From positions 1 through 64,000 of the forward strand of contig DUBB01000027.1 in assembly GCA_012960535.1 (NCBI GenBank): a stretch of DNA of 64,000 nt, in the 5' to 3' direction. Positions within the stretch are counted from its first letter, which is position 1; each line of letters begins with the position of its first letter. The position numbers and the translations under genes are program-made. The stretch is from Gammaproteobacteria bacterium. GTDB lineage: Bacteria; Pseudomonadota; Gammaproteobacteria; Pseudomonadales; Azotimanducaceae. Positions 6,725 to 31,224 of this stretch are shown here, piece after piece. Under the pieces are notes generated by a model that was not told the origin of the DNA, ran no database searches, and saw only the letters and a list, made by a program, of their open reading frames with translations.

Positions 6725-9700
6725 TTACCAGGTGTCAATAAAGGGTCGTTTTTTGCCTTCGCGCTGTAGTGGGGCTGGGCTGGCCTTAAGCCCTGATAGG
6801 ATCCAGTGGCGGGTGTCCATGGGGTCGATGACTTCGTCGATTTCAAATGCAGTGGCAAAATTAACCGCCTTGCCTCGGTCATACATCTGAGCAACTCTTT
6901 TTTCGTATTCCTCGCGCCGGGCTTCTGGGTCCTCTATGGCCTCGAGTTCTTTGCGATAACCGAGCTTGACCGCACCTTCCAGGCCCATTCCACCGAACTC
7001 TCCGGTTGGCCAGGTCACAGTGAAAGTGGATGCCTTGAAACCGCCTCCGGTCATAGCCTGGGCGCCCAGGCCGTAGCCTTTTCTTAGTACGACGGCGAAA
7101 AGAGGTACGGTGAGGCTGGTGCTGGTGACAAAAACGCGGCTGGCATGGCGTACCAAGGCAGTCTTTTCTATTTCCGGGCCGACCATGATCCCAGGGCAGT
7201 CCACCAGGGAAAGAATAGGAATATCAAAGGCATCACATAACTGCATGAAGCGCGCTGCCTTATCGGCACCATCACTGTCTATGGCGCCAGACAGGTGTAC
7301 AGGATCATTGGCTATCAGCCCCATGGGTCGACCTTCGACTCTGATAAAGGCGGTAACCATGCCGATGCCGAATTCAGGGCGGAGCTCGAGTACCGAATCA
7401 GTGTCAGCAATCAGGCTAATGATATTCTTGATGTCATAGACCCTGAGGCGGTTTTCCGGTACGGAAAATCTTAATTTGCGCTGGTCTTCACACTGCCAGT
7501 CTTTCAGCGGTCCCTGAAAGTAGGAAAGTAACTGCTTGGCTTTGGCGACAGCTTCCTGCTCGTCTTTTACAGCGATATCAACTACGCCATTTGGAACCTG
7601 CACGTCCATCGGACCAACCTCATCAGGGCTGAAAATACCCAGGCCACCACCTTCAATCATGGCCGGGCCACCGATGCCAATATTGGAATCCGCCGTTGCG
7701 ATAACGATATCACTGCAACCCAGCAGTACCGCATTGCCAGCAAAGCATCTTCCTGTGGTGATGCCGATCCTGGGAACGAGCCCGCTTAATCTGGCGTACA
7801 ACTGGAAGGCGAGGCAGTCCAGGCCTGCTATGCCAGCACCGTCGGTATCACCTGGCCTGCCACCGCCGCCTTCAGCAATCAGGATGATGGGGATCCTGAG
7901 CTGTTCGGCCAGCTCAAACATGCGATCTTTTTTGCGATGGTTCTGCAGGCCCTGGGTTCCTGCTAGTACCATATAGTCGTAGGACATCACCACGCATTGG
8001 GCCTGATCCTCGGTTACCAGTGCGCCATTAACGCTGCCAATACCACACACCATGCCGTCACCGGGTGTATTTTGCATCAGGTCATCGACGCTGCGACGTC
8101 TGCGTTGCGCAGCAATGGCGAGCGAACCATATTCGATGAAGGTTTCAGGGTCACAGATATCCTGTATATTTTCACGGACGGTGCGATGGTGTGTTTTGCG
8201 GCGTTTTGCGACCGCAGTCTGCCTGTTTTCATCCAGGCCATAGCTGTGGCGAGTGTTTGCTTCCTGTAAGTCCGGGCGAATAAAATCAAGATCGATATTG
8301 TCGTCAGTGTCAGCCGCCCGGGCCGACACTTCTCCTGGTTTGATGGATATAATCAGATGGTCTTCAAATACGGCTTCCTGGGGATTTGCGTGTACTGATA
8401 AAACGGTTCCACTGGCCGTTGCGGTGATAACGTGTTCCATTTTCATAGCATCCATAACCACCAGCTCCTGGCCTATGTGGACCTCATCGCCAGGACTTAC
8501 CTGGATTTCGATGATGGTCCCCTGGAGCGGTGCTGTTATGGCAAGGCTATGCTCTGAACCAGATATCGCCGGGCTGGGCTGTTCTTTTTTTACCGATTTT
8601 TTGCCGTGGGCGAGAACAGCCAGCGGATCCACTTGATCGATCTTGACGCCGGCCGTTTTTTTAACAGGCTCGGCTGGCAAATCGGCGGCGCGAGGTATTT
8701 CACTGGCGATGGCTTTAAGGTTGTTGTCAATGTAGCGAGTGTAGATATCACCCTGCACGAATATATCGCTGTTCAGGATGTATTGCAGAAAAGGCTGGTT
8801 GGTTTCAAAGCCATCAATATGGAAGGCTTTCAGGGCCCGGCTGGCTTTGTCTACAGCCAGTCCGTAATCGTTACTTCTGCTATGCACGATGAGTTTAGCC
8901 AGTAAAGAGTCGTAGCGGGTTGAAGTCTGATAGCCGGCATAGCCAAATCCATCAACCCGTATACCGGGACCGGAGGGCGGGGCGTAGGTTTGTAACTGCC
9001 CACCCGAAGGTTTGAAAAAAGCTTTGGTAGCCAGTGTTTCCATGTTGATTCTGCATTGGATAGCGTAGCCCTGCACATCTGGAGCCTGGCTGAGACCCAG
9101 GGCATTGAGGGTGCTGCCTTGTGCAATGGCGATTTGCAGTTGTACAAGATCAAGTCCGGTAATGGCCTCGGTAACGGTGTGTTCGACCTGCAGGCGGGCG
9201 TTGGCTTCAATAAAGTAATATTGACTGGGGTCGTCGCAGCTGACCAGAAATTCGAAAGTGCCAAGACCTCGATAATTTGCTTCACCGGCCATTTTCAGCG
9301 CTGCGTCGATCATAGCCTGTCGAGTACCCTCAGCCAGCCCTGGGCTGGGCGCGATTTCGATAATTTTTTGATTCTGGCGCTGTACCGAGCACTCTCTCTC
9401 CCATAAGTGTATGACCTGGCCCTGGCCATCACCGATAACCTGGATTTCAATATGCTTGACCCGGGGAATGAGTGCCTCCACATACACAGAGTCGTTACCA
9501 AATGCCATTTTTGCCTCTGACTGGCAGCGCTGATAATTCTTCTCTAACTTCTGCGGGTCATCGACACTGCGCATACCTCGGCCACCACCACCATGTACAG
9601 CTTTAATCAGCAGATCGAATTTTCCGTCCAGGGATGCCATAAAGGCGCTGGCATCTGCCAGCGTCGTCTCGCCATTGGTGCCGGGTACCAGGGGTACTTT

Positions 9701-10072
9701 ACAGTGGGCAGCCAGTGTTCGAGCTCCAGTTTTGTTTCCGAACTGTGCCAGCTGCTCAATAGTAGGACCGATGAGAACGATGTTGGCCGCCTGGCAGGCC
9801 TCGGCGAACGCGACACTTTCACTTAGGAAGCCATAGCCGGGGTGGATGGCATCGGCGTGGGTTTGAACAGCTGCTGCAACCACGGCGTCAATATCAAGAT
9901 AAGCCTGCGCACCGGTGCCGCTGAGCTGAAAAGATTCATCGGCTTGTAGGACGTGCAGTGAAAGGGCGTCGTCTTCTGGATGGATTGCGATACAATCGAT
10001 ACCCATATCCCTGGCCGTGCTGGCGATGCGGAGAGCAATTTCTCCTCGATTGGCAATGAGTAGTCGTTTCAT
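6725..10072 (-). CDS. single-chain biotin-dependent acyl-CoA carboxylase (BC-BCCP-CT)
   Basis: A 1115-residue fusion of all three activities that are usually split over two or more proteins. Residues 1 to about 450 are biotin carboxylase (start MKRLLIANRGEIALRI, ATP-grasp Gly loop HGGGGRGMRSV). Around 510-580 is the biotin carrier domain with AMKMEH; the biotin Lys is K544. From about 620 to the end is a fused carboxyltransferase (GGGGRPGDTDG, and GYGLGAQAMTGGG). Order and size match single-chain long-chain acyl-CoA carboxylases. Substrate (acetyl-, propionyl- or longer acyl-CoA) cannot be fixed from sequence. The enoyl-CoA hydratase gene is divergent, so a role in acyl-CoA metabolism fits. 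Confidence 0.9.
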   Translation of the reverse strand: MKRLLIANRGEIALRIASTARDMGIDCIAIHPEDDALSLHVLQADESFQLSGTGAQAYLDIDAVVAAAVQTHADAIHPGYGFLSESVAFAEACQAANIVLIGPTIEQLAQFGNKTGARTLAAHCKVPLVPGTNGETTLADASAFMASLDGKFDLLIKAVHGGGGRGMRSVDDPQKLEKNYQRCQSEAKMAFGNDSVYVEALIPRVKHIEIQVIGDGQGQVIHLWERECSVQRQNQKIIEIAPSPGLAEGTRQAMIDAALKMAGEANYRGLGTFEFLVSCDDPSQYYFIEANARLQVEHTVTEAITGLDLVQLQIAIAQGSTLNALGLSQAPDVQGYAIQCRINMETLATKAFFKPSGGQLQTYAPPSGPGIRVDGFGYAGYQTSTRYDSLLAKLIVHSRSNDYGLAVDKASRALKAFHIDGFETNQPFLQYILNSDIFVQGDIYTRYIDNNLKAIASEIPRAADLPAEPVKKTAGVKIDQVDPLAVLAHGKKSVKKEQPSPAISGSEHSLAITAPLQGTIIEIQVSPGDEVHIGQELVVMDAMKMEHVITATASGTVLSVHANPQEAVFEDHLIISIKPGEVSARAADTDDNIDLDFIRPDLQEANTRHSYGLDENRQTAVAKRRKTHHRTVRENIQDICDPETFIEYGSLAIAAQRRRRSVDDLMQNTPGDGMVCGIGSVNGALVTEDQAQCVVMSYDYMVLAGTQGLQNHRKKDRMFELAEQLRIPIILIAEGGGGRPGDTDGAGIAGLDCLAFQLYARLSGLVPRIGITTGRCFAGNAVLLGCSDIVIATADSNIGIGGPAMIEGGGLGIFSPDEVGPMDVQVPNGVVDIAVKDEQEAVAKAKQLLSYFQGPLKDWQCEDQRKLRFSVPENRLRVYDIKNIISLIADTDSVLELRPEFGIGMVTAFIRVEGRPMGLIANDPVHLSGAIDSDGADKAARFMQLCDAFDIPILSLVDCPGIMVGPEIEKTALVRHASRVFVTSTSLTVPLFAVVLRKGYGLGAQAMTGGGFKASTFTVTWPTGEFGGMGLEGAVKLGYRKELEAIEDPEARREEYEKRVAQMYDRGKAVNFATAFEIDEVIDPMDTRHWILSGLKASPAPLQREGKKRPFIDTW

Positions 10073-27415: not shown

Positions 27416-28609
27416 ATGACCCAGAAAAGAGATGCGGCAATTGTTGGAATTCATGAATATCCTAGCCGGGATGTTGAAGGTGAAGTTAGTCCCTTGCAGA
27501 TCAAGGCTGAATCAGCAGCGCGTGCCCTGGAGGATGCGGGTTTAAACTGGTCGGATGTGGATGGGATCTATGATGCGGGAGAAGGTGGCGGCATGGGAGG
27601 ACTTACCATTGCTGAATATTTTGGTCTGCATCCCAGTGTTATTGATACAACAAGCGTCGGAGGAAGCTCTTACGAATTTCATGCGGCCCATGCTAAGCGG
27701 GACATAGCGGCCGGTAAGTGCAGAGTGGCCTTACTCACATATGGATCTACCGCTCACAGCAATGCCCGTGCTATTGGTGTGGGAGGGCGAGGCGGCGCCT
27801 CTATGCACCCTGCGGAGAACATGGATGCTTTTGCCGGGATGACGTTGATTGCAAATTATGCGATGGTCGCGCATCGACACATGCATAATTATGGTACAAC
27901 CAGTGAGCAGTTAGCAGAGATATCCATAGCGACGCGACTACATGCCATGCGCAATCCAGAGGCCGTAAAAGCAATGGAGGATCTGGAATTCCTGGATATC
28001 AGAGAGACGACCATTGAGGATGTGGTGAATTCGAGGATGATCGCTGATCCTCTGCATCTACTGGAATGTTGCATGATTTCAGATGGCGGTGGTGCGGTGG
28101 TCATAGCAGCACCTGAAATTGCCAGGGACTGCAGGAAATCTCCAGTTTGGATTCTCGGTAGCGGTGAAGCGACAAAATATCCAACGCGTGGTGGTGATAT
28201 TACCAGTAGCGCAGCAACTCAATCAGGGCCCCAGGCCTATGGTGAGGCTGGGGTTACAGCGGCAGAGATGGATATAGCGATGATATACGATTCCTTCAGT
28301 ATCACCGTCTTGACGTTGCTGGAAGACCTTGGTTTTTGCCGGAAAGGTGAAGGTGGAGGCTGGGCTCAGGGCGGTAGACTGCGTTTTGACAGGCCCTCTG
28401 ATGGCCCGGCATTGAACACTGATGGTGGCGGGTTATCATCCAATCATCCTGGTATGCGCGGGATCTTTCTGTTGATAGAGGCTGCCAGACAATTGCGTGG
28501 CGAATCCTGTTCGCAGGTTGTTGATGCGAAGCTTGCAGTGGCTCATGGCAATGGTGGTATGCTGGGTAGTCGTCATTCTGCGGGAACGATTATTCTAGGG
28601 AGAGACTAA
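27416..28609 (+). CDS. thiolase-like protein of the SCP2/Ltp type
   Basis: 397 residues with the overall thiolase fold (start RDAAIVGIHEYPSRD, late AHGNGGMLGSRHSAGT). In active thiolases the nucleophile is Cys in a motif like GACASG; the matching stretch here is DTTSVGGSSYEFHAA, with no Cys. Ltp2-type retro-aldolases also lack this Cys and work with a DUF35 partner, which is the very next gene (TAATG overlap). Thus an aldol-lyase of side-chain degradation is more likely than a thiolase, but this is inference. AGGAAATAG before the ATG is the ribosome binding site. Confidence 0.75.
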   Translation: MTQKRDAAIVGIHEYPSRDVEGEVSPLQIKAESAARALEDAGLNWSDVDGIYDAGEGGGMGGLTIAEYFGLHPSVIDTTSVGGSSYEFHAAHAKRDIAAGKCRVALLTYGSTAHSNARAIGVGGRGGASMHPAENMDAFAGMTLIANYAMVAHRHMHNYGTTSEQLAEISIATRLHAMRNPEAVKAMEDLEFLDIRETTIEDVVNSRMIADPLHLLECCMISDGGGAVVIAAPEIARDCRKSPVWILGSGEATKYPTRGGDITSSAATQSGPQAYGEAGVTAAEMDIAMIYDSFSITVLTLLEDLGFCRKGEGGGWAQGGRLRFDRPSDGPALNTDGGGLSSNHPGMRGIFLLIEAARQLRGESCSQVVDAKLAVAHGNGGMLGSRHSAGTIILGRD

Positions 28610-29028
28610 TGAATGAACCAGTAAGGCCTTTGCCAAGAGCGGATGAATTCGATACCCGAGAATTCTGGGAAGGAACGAAACAGCGGGAATTTAGATACCA
28701 GCAATGTAATCATTGTGATGAAGTGGTGTTTTACCCCAGGCGTCACTGTACCGGTTGCACCGAAGGTGAGCTGGTTTGGAAAGTATCAGCCGGGAAAGGA
28801 ACGGTATATACCTTCAGTGTCGTCAGGCAGAGTTATCACCCGTTTTTTAGAAGCAGGGTGCCTTATGCGGTCGCCTGGATCGATCTGGAAGAAGGCCCAC
28901 GTATATTGAGCAACATAGTGGGCGTAGACGATCCTCTATCGGAAGTATCCATAGGAATGGCGGTGCAAGTAGAATGGGAAGAGCATGAGAATGTGAATAT
29001 CCCCCTGTTTAAACCCATAGAAGATTAA
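28609..29028 (+). CDS. DUF35 OB-fold/zinc-ribbon protein, partner of the thiolase-like gene
   Basis: 139 residues: an N-terminal zinc ribbon with Cys pairs CNHCDEVVFYPRRHCTGC, then an OB-fold (GTVYTFSVVRQSYHPFF). DUF35 proteins bind acyl-CoA thiolases or aldolases and are required for their stability or activity, and the ATG overlaps the upstream stop by one base, implying a fixed stoichiometry. Acts in the cytoplasm. Confidence 0.85.
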   Translation: MNEPVRPLPRADEFDTREFWEGTKQREFRYQQCNHCDEVVFYPRRHCTGCTEGELVWKVSAGKGTVYTFSVVRQSYHPFFRSRVPYAVAWIDLEEGPRILSNIVGVDDPLSEVSIGMAVQVEWEEHENVNIPLFKPIED

Positions 29029-29062
29029 GCTGAATTACAGCCGGGTTGCTAACAGGGAATAA

Positions 29063-29491
29063 TCAGCCCCTGGGCAGGATTACTGTTGCAGTACCAAATA
29101 CCCGGGTTTCAGATTTGTCATTGGTGACCGTCAGGTCGATTTCAATCGTTGATTTGTCTTCATCTATATCTGTGACAACACCATTAACCGTGTAAACCTG
29201 GTCAGCCATTACCGGTGCTCTGAATATAGTATCGATGCTCTTAATTTCTGCGCATTGAGCCCACTGGTGGATCATTGCAACCAGATATGCCTGGCTGAGT
29301 ACGCCTGGAATCATAGCCCCGGGCAGGCCCTCTTTTTTGGCACCTTCATGATTGGTGAAACGCGGTGCGTGCCAGCCAATTAGGTGGGCAAATTTTGCTC
29401 CGGTTGTCAGTGTTGTATCTGGGGAAAAAGCAGGTAGTTCAGCACCAAATTCAACATCCGATAGCTTTTCTATTAGCGCTTCTTTTATCAT
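29063..29491 (-). CDS. MaoC-like hot-dog hydratase, C-terminal type
   Basis: 142 residues, hot-dog fold. Contains the C-terminal-type segment GWHAPRFTNHEGAKKEGLPG and PVMADQVYTVNGVVTDID. The classic hydratase-2 motif (G-D-x-N-P-x-H) is not intact, so activity may come from the pair as a whole. Overlaps the upstream MaoC gene by 4 bp (ATGA), which suggests a heterodimer. Convergent with the thiolase-like/DUF35 operon. Confidence 0.75.
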   Translation of the reverse strand: MIKEALIEKLSDVEFGAELPAFSPDTTLTTGAKFAHLIGWHAPRFTNHEGAKKEGLPGAMIPGVLSQAYLVAMIHQWAQCAEIKSIDTIFRAPVMADQVYTVNGVVTDIDEDKSTIEIDLTVTNDKSETRVFGTATVILPRG

Positions 29492-29928
29492 TTAGTTTTC
29501 TCCCTCATGACCATTCGGCTATCTGAATTAGCCAGGTGCTGGCGTTGCTTATCGTAAAATTCGATTCTTGCAACCACAAAAACCATGCGACCGGACCGGC
29601 CTGTTTTTGTATAAATATCATGCAAGTGTGTCTTGCCGGTAATGGTTTGGTCTGGTTTTATGGGAATCAGGCACTCAACACCCTTACCAGCATCCATACC
29701 AAAGCCAAATCGCGGGAAACCGTCAGGCAGCGAACGTCCTCCACTGAGGCAGGCTATAAAGGTGGGCGGGGCCTGGAAATTGGGGTGATCCGGGTCAAGG
29801 AATTTTGGATCTGTCTCGCCACACAGGCGGGCATATTCACTGGTTACTTTCGAATCGATGGTAAATTCTTTTTCATCAAAGTCCTTATTGAGGAATTGTT
29901 CTCTGAGAGCAAGGATATCGGTGTCCAT
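29488..29928 (-). CDS. MaoC N-terminal/FAS1-type dehydratase domain protein
   Basis: 146 residues of the MaoC_dehydrat_N family: EFTIDSKVTSEYARLCGE, then FIACLSGGRSLPDG and GKGVECLIPIKP. Members are the non-catalytic or partially catalytic half of a two-component hydratase. With the downstream partner it would form a double hot-dog like ChsH1/ChsH2 enoyl-CoA hydratase of sterol side-chain breakdown; HadA/HadB-type hydratases are an alternative. Confidence 0.72.
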   Translation of the reverse strand: MDTDILALREQFLNKDFDEKEFTIDSKVTSEYARLCGETDPKFLDPDHPNFQAPPTFIACLSGGRSLPDGFPRFGFGMDAGKGVECLIPIKPDQTITGKTHLHDIYTKTGRSGRMVFVVARIEFYDKQRQHLANSDSRMVMREKTK

Positions 29929-29935
29929 ATTTTTA

Positions 29936-30574
29936 CTACCTTCCTGAAGCTTTTAAGTTGACGGCCTCGAAGTCACCTTGTTGCAGCGCTTCTAAGAGTT
30001 GATTCATGTCGTGAACAGGTCTGCCAAAACGAGTTGCGCAGCGCCCCACGTGGCTGACGATATGCGAATCACTGCCACCGATACCCAGGTAGCCTTGAAT
30101 GCTGGCCTGGTCAATAGCGATCTGGTCCTCATCATCACGGCTACCGCCATTGTATATTTCAACAATCTGAACATCGGCGGGAATCCCCAGTTCTTCTGTA
30201 TGAGCAAACATGCCTACTCTGGGCCTGCCAGGGTGGCAGGGAGCGGCAATTGCACCATGTTCTTTAGCCGCCGCCAGCACGGTTGCCAGAGGCGTGTCGA
30301 TGCTTGAAAAGTCGAAACAGTCAGTCAATGCCTGGCTTACGCCAAAAACCAGGACATGGCCGTATTCAGTTTCAACTTCGCTGCCTTTCAGAATAACCAG
30401 GTTGTATTCGGTTGCAAGGCCGGAATAATCCGATTCGAAATCGAATTGCCGGTGCTCGGTGAGCACGAATCCGTCGATTGGGATTTGGCGCGCTTTAATC
30501 CATTGACAGTAGTTCTCAACTTTTGCCCGGCCATCGTCTGATTTTATTGAGTGGGTGTGTAAATCGAGTATCAC
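29936..30574 (-). CDS. PHP-domain metal-dependent phosphoesterase
   Basis: 212 residues with the PHP metal ligands: HTHSIKSDDG at the N-terminus, VLTEHR, and GGSDSH near the end, plus PCHPGRP. PHP proteins hydrolyse phosphate esters; substrates include histidinol phosphate, nucleotides and RNA. Nothing here identifies one. Eight bp before the MaoC genes on the same strand, so possibly in one transcript. Confidence 0.85.
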   Translation of the reverse strand: MILDLHTHSIKSDDGRAKVENYCQWIKARQIPIDGFVLTEHRQFDFESDYSGLATEYNLVILKGSEVETEYGHVLVFGVSQALTDCFDFSSIDTPLATVLAAAKEHGAIAAPCHPGRPRVGMFAHTEELGIPADVQIVEIYNGGSRDDEDQIAIDQASIQGYLGIGGSDSHIVSHVGRCATRFGRPVHDMNQLLEALQQGDFEAVNLKASGR

Positions 30575-30639: not shown

Positions 30640-31224
30640 TTATACCGATAACTGCATAGATTGTGGGGAATAGGTTATTGCCGGAATTTCAGGGTGTGGT
30701 GAGGTTGATTCAGGCATTATTTGGTGCAACGACACCCTGGCACAGCCCTTGTCAATAATGATTTCGCCTAGCGTGCCTGGTCGAACTGACTGGTTTCTCG
30801 GTAGTATGGCTGACCCTGGATTGATAAAAAGCATATTGTGGTCGGCTAATAATATCTCGAAATGGGTATGTCCGAAGATCAAGATATCAGGAAGCTGGTT
30901 AAAATTCCTTCGTAAGTTTTTGTGAATAGTTCCAGCATCTTTCCGTGCAGGTGAAGGACACTGGTGTATCAGTCCTAATTGCAGACCCCCAAATTCCAGC
31001 ATCCAGTGATCACGTAATCTTGAATCCTCGAGTCCTTTATCGCCATTGCCTCTGGCGACAAAAGTAGGTGCTATATCACTCAAGGTATCGACCACATCAA
31101 GGGTATGAAGGTCCCCGGCATGCAGGATGCAGTCGCTTCCAGCCAGGAATTCCACAGCAGCTGGCCATAATTCCTTTACAGCACCAGGCATGTGAGTATC
31201 GGAAATCAAACCTATCCGGATCAT
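30640..31224 (-). CDS. metallophosphoesterase, YfcE/MJ0936-like
   Basis: 194 residues. Calcineurin-type motifs in order: SDTHMP, HAGDLH, GNGDKGL, HQCPSP, and GHTHFE near residue 117, the last being the GHTH signature. Cytoplasmic phosphodiesterase or phosphatase of small substrates. Two bp separate it from the prolyl oligopeptidase gene upstream. Confidence 0.88.
   Translation of the reverse strand: MIRIGLISDTHMPGAVKELWPAAVEFLAGSDCILHAGDLHTLDVVDTLSDIAPTFVARGNGDKGLEDSRLRDHWMLEFGGLQLGLIHQCPSPARKDAGTIHKNLRRNFNQLPDILIFGHTHFEILLADHNMLFINPGSAILPRNQSVRPGTLGEIIIDKGCARVSLHQIMPESTSPHPEIPAITYSPQSMQLSV

Follow-up and report, generated by a model that had tools for sequence, protein, structure and literature searches.

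Two solved systems of steroid catabolism are the closest described relatives of the locus presented here. In the bile-acid aldolase-hydratase CtSal-CtShy (9myr) the position of the thiolase nucleophile Cys is reportedly occupied by Gly, the catalytic residues are Tyr302 and Cys304, with C304A, C304S and C304H each inactive, and the partner Shy carries a C3H1 zinc ribbon; in TcLtp2-ChsH2DUF35 (6ok1) the catalytic pair is Tyr294/Tyr344, TcChsH2 has the C4 pattern, and in both enzymes the Tyr of the YDxF motif is the essential base (PMC12329534). Two further papers describe that in Comamonas the aldolase requires its DUF35 domain (PMC12502768) and that the Asp/His dyad of the known MaoC pairs sits in the ChsH1/HadB half (PMC11321319). 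We analyzed a window of 64 kb, the first 64 kb of contig C27 (DUBB01000027.1) of a gammaproteobacterial genome of 4.24 Mb in 53 contigs, whose near relatives among named records include metagenome-assembled genomes (MAGs) with the labels Pseudomonadales, K189A clade and OM182 clade. The window carries a gene for a thiolase-fold protein (THIO; 27416..28609, + strand, 397 aa) followed by a DUF35 gene, with a PHP-MaoC1-MaoC2 run converging on this pair from the opposite strand. This architecture is already known from steroid catabolism. We tentatively favour the reading, quite plausible but short of probable, in which THIO-DUF35 cleaves a C-C bond of an acyl-CoA as a Cys-less lyase of the thiolase fold, most likely a retro-aldolase, and lies next to a run encoding a MaoC heterodimer without the hydratase dyad.

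The original prediction held that the thiolase-like protein lacks the nucleophile Cys, and the alignment agreed with it. Gly83 (codon 27662..27664, + strand) stands opposite the nucleophile Cys of the Cys thiolases BbsB (7pxp) and AACT (6esq), and the motif DTTSVGGSSYEF, on which the claim was based, corresponds to THIO residues 77-88. With Gly in place of the nucleophile Cys, THIO cannot, by its sequence, carry out canonical Cys thiolysis. Ser84 was considered as a replacement nucleophile and rejected, because the same alignment sets Gly83, not Ser84, against the Cys. Likewise no Cys nucleophile was found elsewhere in the protein: Cys218/219 and Cys308 are conserved but lie outside the active-site motifs, and they are present in TcLtp2 and BbsB too. 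When the window protein was aligned by MAFFT with the clade members from 32 of 80 loci (47-89% identical), all 33 rows agreed in the Gly of the nucleophile site, in YDSF (291-294) and in an NHP that contains His344, the latter being invariant also in the 31 rows of alignment A1. The YDSF motif (28286..28297, + strand) places Tyr291 on Tyr302 of CtSal and Tyr294 of TcLtp2, and Ser293 on Cys304 of CtSal; His344 (28445..28447, + strand), the GHP His of thiolases, lies opposite Tyr344 of TcLtp2 and Gln352 of CtSal. At the same sites the MAFFT alignment reads YDCY/Gln/Ser in CtSal, YDHF/Tyr in TcLtp2, and HDAF/His/His plus the Cys in BbsB. Of the two aldolase Tyr to be sought by alignment with Ltp2, one was therefore recovered (Tyr291, equivalent to Tyr294), whereas the other, Tyr344, is replaced by His344 in 33 of 33 rows. 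Judged from these alignments, THIO has in common with both CtSal and TcLtp2 just the Tyr base and not the second catalytic residue.

The A1 profile ranked 4u4e first in the PDB (433 bits), followed by CtSal of 9myr (247), TcLtp2 of 6ok1 (212), BbsB (175) and AACT (166); structure searches covered the PDB library. The nearest single chain is thus 4u4e, and the nearest solved two-chain complexes for THIO and DUF35 together are CtSal-ShyDUF35 and TcLtp2-ChsH2DUF35. The 4u4e protein, named 'Thiolase' and presumably from Sphaerobacter thermophilus, has the same signature as THIO (VGGSS / YDSF / THPGM / HGTGG) but belongs to a sister subgroup, and we found no paper on it in the open-access literature. 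In the tree the window clade grouped with 4u4e and the own-genome paralogue C25 (35 rows, 100/98), separate from TcLtp2 and CtSal, although the outer branches are long and the joins between them unsure. In paralogue C25, the sister of 4u4e, the motif is YDAF, which shows that the wider group varies at Ser293. By sequence, THIO (Pfam Thiolase_C_1, 1.2e-44) is probably a member of a Cys-less lineage which adjoins, but lies outside, the steroid side-chain aldolases Ltp2 (C3) and Sal (C5). NCBIfam model PRK07855, which we take to be the Ltp2 model, gave 187.3 bits with THIO, under its cut-off of 469, and 0 of its 11 matches in the genome passed. PRK08142 and PRK06158 came closer (398.8 of 462 and 371.1 of 421), both again under cut-off; the NCBIfam names in this wider group are 'thiolase domain-containing', 'acetyl-CoA acetyltransferase' and 'lipid-transfer protein'.

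The coupling of THIO to a DUF35 gene, as had been noticed earlier, was confirmed. The DUF35 subunit (28609..29028, + strand, 139 aa), with zinc ribbon and OB fold (Pfam OB_ChsH2_C 1.1e-20, zf-ChsH2 1.5e-10), starts on the base with which THIO ends, the stop TAA and the start ATG having 1 base in common (TAATG). It found as best PDB matches the DUF35 chains (chain B) of 9myr and 6ok1, and in all 28 gammaproteobacterial stretches compared (L049-L076) it directly follows THIO. Its ribbon, Cys33-x2-Cys36-x10-Cys47-x2-Cys50 (28705..28758, + strand), read in the sequence, is of the usual C4 type, as in TcChsH2, and is encoded in a separate gene, unlike the C3H1 ribbon of Shy. With CtSal-CtShy (PMC12329534) the locus shares the thiolase fold lacking the nucleophile Cys, the YDxx Tyr base, the DUF35 partner and an NSRM motif with Arg; we infer from this motif that the Arg of THIO corresponds to Arg216 of CtSal. 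It differs from that system in having Ser for the essential Cys304, His for Gln352, a DUF35 protein not fused to MaoC (Shy is a DUF35-MaoC fusion) and a MaoC pair in place of one active MaoC. With the TcLtp2 system, including ChsH1-ChsH2 (4w78), it shares the thiolase-fold aldolase with a C4 DUF35 and the two unlike MaoC halves of ChsH1/ChsH2 fold, but it has YDSF for YDHF, His344 for Tyr344, DUF35 as its own gene, a ChsH1-like half devoid of Asp/His, and an added PHP gene. Benzoylsuccinyl-CoA thiolase BbsAB is alike in the DUF35 partner, the GHP His and the His at 377, and unlike in that BbsB has the nucleophile Cys and HDAF.

By analogy with the two solved aldolases, THIO would split a 3-hydroxyacyl-CoA into a short acyl-CoA and a carbonyl product, either a ketone or an aldehyde. 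As the base, Tyr291 would take the proton from the 3-hydroxyl, the C-C bond would break to give the carbonyl and an acyl-CoA enolate, and His344 may then protonate this enolate as acid. DUF35 would form a wall of the active site and serve as the docking point for partners. Such C-C lyase activity is supported by the location of His344 at the site of the Ltp2 acid Tyr344, by conservation of the YDxF Tyr and by the DUF35 gene adjacent in 28 of 28 stretches. The MaoC pair more likely binds or hands over acyl-CoA, or does other chemistry, than performs classical hydration, and the PHP enzyme may hydrolyse some group.

Two half-size MaoC proteins do lie at the locus, converging on THIO-DUF35 with 34 bp between the two gene pairs: MaoC2 (29063..29491, - strand, 142 aa) and MaoC1 (29488..29928, - strand, 146 aa), which overlap by 4 bases. 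MaoC1 matched PF13452 with 37.6 bits (cut-off 22), and MaoC2 reached just 23.3 bits with PF01575 (cut-off 27). AlphaFold2 gave confident hot-dog folds for both (pLDDT 92.0 for MaoC2, 91.4 for MaoC1). Foldseek matched the MaoC2 model to PhaJ (1iq6), HadB and the short chains of 4w78/4wnb, taken as ChsH1 by chain length, and the MaoC1 model to itaconyl-CoA hydratase, HadA and the long chains of 4w78 (ChsH2). The models thus predict two unlike halves, MaoC2 with a ChsH1-like and MaoC1 with a ChsH2-like fold, the latter of the HadA/ChsH2/itaconyl-CoA hydratase N-half type. The predicted folds are those of the (R)-hydratases HadAB and PhaJ, but the dyad Asp and His are Trp and Phe in MaoC2. In the gap-free stretch of its HMM alignment to HadB-type chains, W-x-x-P-R-F stands against D-x-N-P-I-H, with Trp40...Phe45 (29357..29374, - strand) at the Asp...His site. 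The MaoC2 alignment comprised 54 rows including the window, of which 53 contained the dyad segment; Arg44, Phe45 and His48 were found in every one of these 53, and column 40 was Trp in 49 and Tyr in 4. In MaoC1, Glu38 was present in 47 of 49 rows, as was Phe or Tyr at position 43. More remote MaoC2 homologues from Chloroflexota (L224, L225) have RF as well, and L226 has AF. With MaoC2 lacking the Asp/His dyad and MaoC1 having Glu/Phe, neither half is a canonical hydratase, and the hydratase function earlier ascribed to the pair does not hold up; another MaoC active site is possible. In one genus member (L061, G001:C259:12618-13021) MaoC2 is seemingly broken into two pieces with internal stops, possibly by assembly error; this genome still has MaoC1, PHP, THIO and DUF35. 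Further MaoC1-MaoC2 pairs lie away from THIO in L079-L109, with SDR, enoyl-CoA hydratase, acyl-CoA dehydrogenase and P450-like neighbours by eye.

A fifth partner, overlooked in the original prediction, is a PHP-domain metallohydrolase (29936..30574, - strand; PHP_C, CehA/McbA-like below cut-off), the first gene of the MaoC operon, which lies 7 bp upstream of MaoC1 in the same reading direction. Conservation of the arrangement was examined in stretches of 10.9-20 kb, some cut by contig ends, from 28 of the 33 genomes with a THIO orthologue (THIO 79-99% identity). Both MaoCs were present in 20 of them, converging on THIO-DUF35 in 19 and diverging in L074, and PHP in 24; L050 stops just past DUF35, and MaoC and PHP are both missing from the stretches L067, L070 and L075. 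Together with DUF35 in 28 of 28 stretches, these counts indicate that the gene arrangement is not due to chance. Across a sample of 97 relatives, MaoC1 occurred in 31 of the 33 genomes with a THIO orthologue (>=79% identity, fragments counted) and in 14 of the 64 lacking one (Fisher 3e-12, kinship ignored). Nine gammaproteobacterial genomes with THIO and PHP have no MaoC at the locus; a close MaoC2 homologue was found elsewhere in six of these and in none of the other three. The MaoC1-MaoC2 pair can exist independently of THIO, sometimes still adjoining PHP (L084, L091, L092). In this set of loci the two MaoC genes adjoin each other wherever both were found.

Beyond this group THIO-DUF35 is the widespread unit. 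THIO orthologues of 61-74% identity were found in Dehalococcoidia/SAR202, Thermoflexus, Actinobacteria, Myxococcales and Acidobacteria records, and DUF35 in 23 of 25 such distant loci (L143-L165, L168, L169). By tblastn no homologue of MaoC1, MaoC2 or PHP was detected at distant THIO loci; HMMs add L162, and clustering adds L154 for PHP. Seven non-gammaproteobacterial genomes were searched. Three of them, one Myxococcota and two Chloroflexota genomes (G109-G111; L223-L225), all bearing THIO, have a PHP-MaoC1-MaoC2 run elsewhere in the genome; G106 has weaker MaoC2 matches, one with a MaoC1-like sequence upstream by eye (L226), and the remaining three gave zero MaoC2 matches. In the Chloroflexi genome G109 PHP and MaoC1 are in one open frame (L224:1949-3415, - strand) with PHP_C and FAS1_DH_region domains, and the next gene is a MaoC2 homologue whose dyad site reads Arg-Phe; unless an assembly error, the joined PHP-MaoC1 frame is a natural fusion. 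Among 201 Chloroflexota genomes, 5 had a THIO relative (E <= 1e-100; 54-73% identity), 9 a PHP homologue (E <= 1e-12) and 3 both; with the chosen centre, G109, left out, 4 of the 200 had THIO, 8 had PHP and 2 had both (p 0.008, kinship ignored). G109 was the sole case with MaoC genes beside PHP in 11 PHP loci scanned, so the PHP-MaoC operon is rare in Chloroflexota. In the vicinity of THIO, the actinobacterial loci L149, L150 and L154 carry a double MaoC whose GDRNPLH is intact, together with two acyl-CoA dehydrogenases, an SDR and an acyl-CoA ligase of the ADP-forming type. In L162 the MaoC pair is split and retains GDFNPIH, and two acyl-CoA dehydrogenases are again present; a PHP gene occurs both there and in L154. 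Pfam was run on L150, on the MaoC genes of L162 and on the PHP gene of L154, the other L149/L154 labels being given by clustering. The gene content of these four loci suggests the order dehydrogenase, hydratase, C-C lyase and speaks for the C-C lyase reading.

Several observations weigh against a C-C lyase acting with its neighbours, and they have to be set beside the alternatives. The Asp/His dyad was found in neither MaoC half by alignment (MaoC2 Trp40/Phe45, MaoC1 Glu38/Phe43), and therefore no canonical hydratase supplies the C-C lyase step locally. CtSal requires its Cys and the C304S mutant is inactive, while THIO has Ser. A THIO-like protein of G063 has YDCF instead of YDSF together with NTHGGLLSHCHP, combining the Cys of Sal with the GHP His. 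MaoC genes were found by HMM in just 6 of 48 distant THIO loci (L149, L150, L154, L162, L180 and, weakly, L191), so a MaoC context is a minority one there; the SDR genes at the actinobacterial loci could yield 3-ketoacyl-CoA instead; and 14 of 45 MaoC1-bearing genomes have no THIO orthologue, two of which (G009, G012) carry an orthologous DUF35 near a contig end, with THIO possibly off contig. The last count, the tblastn result at distant loci and the occurrence of MaoC pairs in other clusters fit the view that THIO-DUF35 and PHP-MaoC1-MaoC2 are separate systems, chance neighbours in this clade, and that THIO uses hydratases encoded elsewhere. We consider this unlikely, given both MaoCs in 20 of 28 stretches, the co-occurrence of MaoC1 with THIO across the 97 relatives, and the PHP-MaoC order in three THIO-bearing genomes of two other phyla. 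It is also possible to suppose that THIO-DUF35 acts on a 3-ketoacyl-CoA or malonyl-type ester independently of a covalent Cys, by Claisen/retro-Claisen chemistry or as a decarboxylase via Tyr291, His344 and His377. The identity of His344 with the GHP His, the His of BbsB, a thiolase with DUF35 partner, aligned to His377, and the SDR genes alongside THIO in Actinobacteria speak for it; against it, residue 291 matches the Tyr of the aldolases and not the His seen in BbsB and AACT, and His377 of HGxGG (28544..28546, + strand) occurs in 31 of 33 clade rows but gives way to Val in L147 and L151, which makes us regard this chemistry as rather improbable.

The original prediction, a hydratase-aldolase of Ltp2/ChsH1/ChsH2 type acting on a sterol-like side chain with MaoC1-MaoC2 as working hydratase, is in our judgement very unlikely. 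The analogy stood as to the same four parts, the Tyr base, the DUF35 partner and the ChsH1- and ChsH2-like folds; it failed at the second Tyr, the PRK07855 score and the dyad, its His being Phe in 53 of 53 MaoC2 rows. A steroid substrate at the THIO locus is not supported. The genome does encode two KshA_C proteins (196.7 and 93 bits), a KstD-like protein (541 bits, below the cut-off of 788), an IpdE2-like acyl-CoA dehydrogenase (252 of 450) and a relative of extradiol dioxygenases (316 of 366), but the first three kinds are placed on contig C17 and the last on C8, where the genes need not be steroid genes because the neighbours include a ring-hydroxylating oxygenase pair (by eye). Steroid-like genes were thus located on C17 and perhaps C8 and not at the THIO locus, and no steroid ring or side-chain gene was seen among the THIO neighbours within about 8 kb. 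Furthermore, two paralogues, C16 and C2, carry a Tyr where Ltp2 has its acid and fall with TcLtp2 in the tree, as C51 does with CtSal, on long branches; if the organism cleaves steroid side chains, these are better candidates than THIO. The presence of orthologues (61-74% identity) in MAGs of Dehalococcoidia/SAR202 and Thermoflexus and in further phyla also argues against the original prediction. Finally, the C-C lyase reading can be extended to an ancient multi-gene acyl-CoA system of at least three groups (Gammaproteobacteria, Myxococcota and Chloroflexota): THIO-DUF35, as an aldolase of a new Tyr/His type, would work with a PHP enzyme physically joined to the dyad-less MaoC heterodimer, and both C-C cleavage and the MaoC step would proceed by undescribed chemistry. 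This extension is speculative and unlikely.

Other features can be noted briefly. Contig C17 (28.5 kb; L204, L205) encodes, besides the two KshA_C proteins and the KstD-like flavoprotein, another FAD-binding protein (similar to PRK07121, below cut-off) and two acyl-CoA dehydrogenases, one of them IpdE2-like, with SDRs and CoA ligases too by eye; it is a possible steroid or terpenoid ring-degradation cluster. The C16 paralogue (C16:59828-60976) has YENF in place of YDHF and lies between amidohydrolase-like and DUF35-like genes (by eye); the second Ltp2-like paralogue is C2:143679-144743. In G063 two MaoC-like genes, the THIO-like gene (39%) and a DUF35-like gene follow a CoA-ligase-like gene on one strand (L208, G063:C2, 7988-10473; partly by eye), a row that speaks for the C-C lyase reading. 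Upstream of PHP lies a metallophosphoesterase gene (30640..31224, - strand; Metallophos_2), a possible sixth partner, whose relatives (32-38% identical) occur in 13 of 48 distant THIO loci, e.g. L155; these are mostly from Chloroflexota, also from Myxococcota and Acidobacteriota, and several derive from one ancestral region. The surroundings of the locus (about 8 kb) encode by Pfam an M3 peptidase, CoaE, PHP, the metallophosphoesterase and a prolyl oligopeptidase, with SMC-like, glyoxalase-like, SDR and MFS genes recognised by eye; a promoter/terminator scan gave no signal clearly exceeding shuffled sequence. At 6725-10072 the window encodes a very long single chain that by eye resembles biotin carboxylase, biotin carrier and carboxyltransferase in one.

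We recognised no study dealing with this THIO clade in the open-access literature, where neither the residue set of THIO nor a dyad-less MaoC heterodimer nor PHP as a partner was found described. If the proposed reading is true, Sal and Ltp2 would represent two lines within a broader group of C-C lyases with thiolase fold, in which at least three different acid residues (Cys, Tyr and His) would be used on one scaffold. Conserved MaoC heterodimers lacking the known catalytic residues, with PHP as a frequent partner, would then exist in marine bacteria of the K189A/OM182 clades and beyond.

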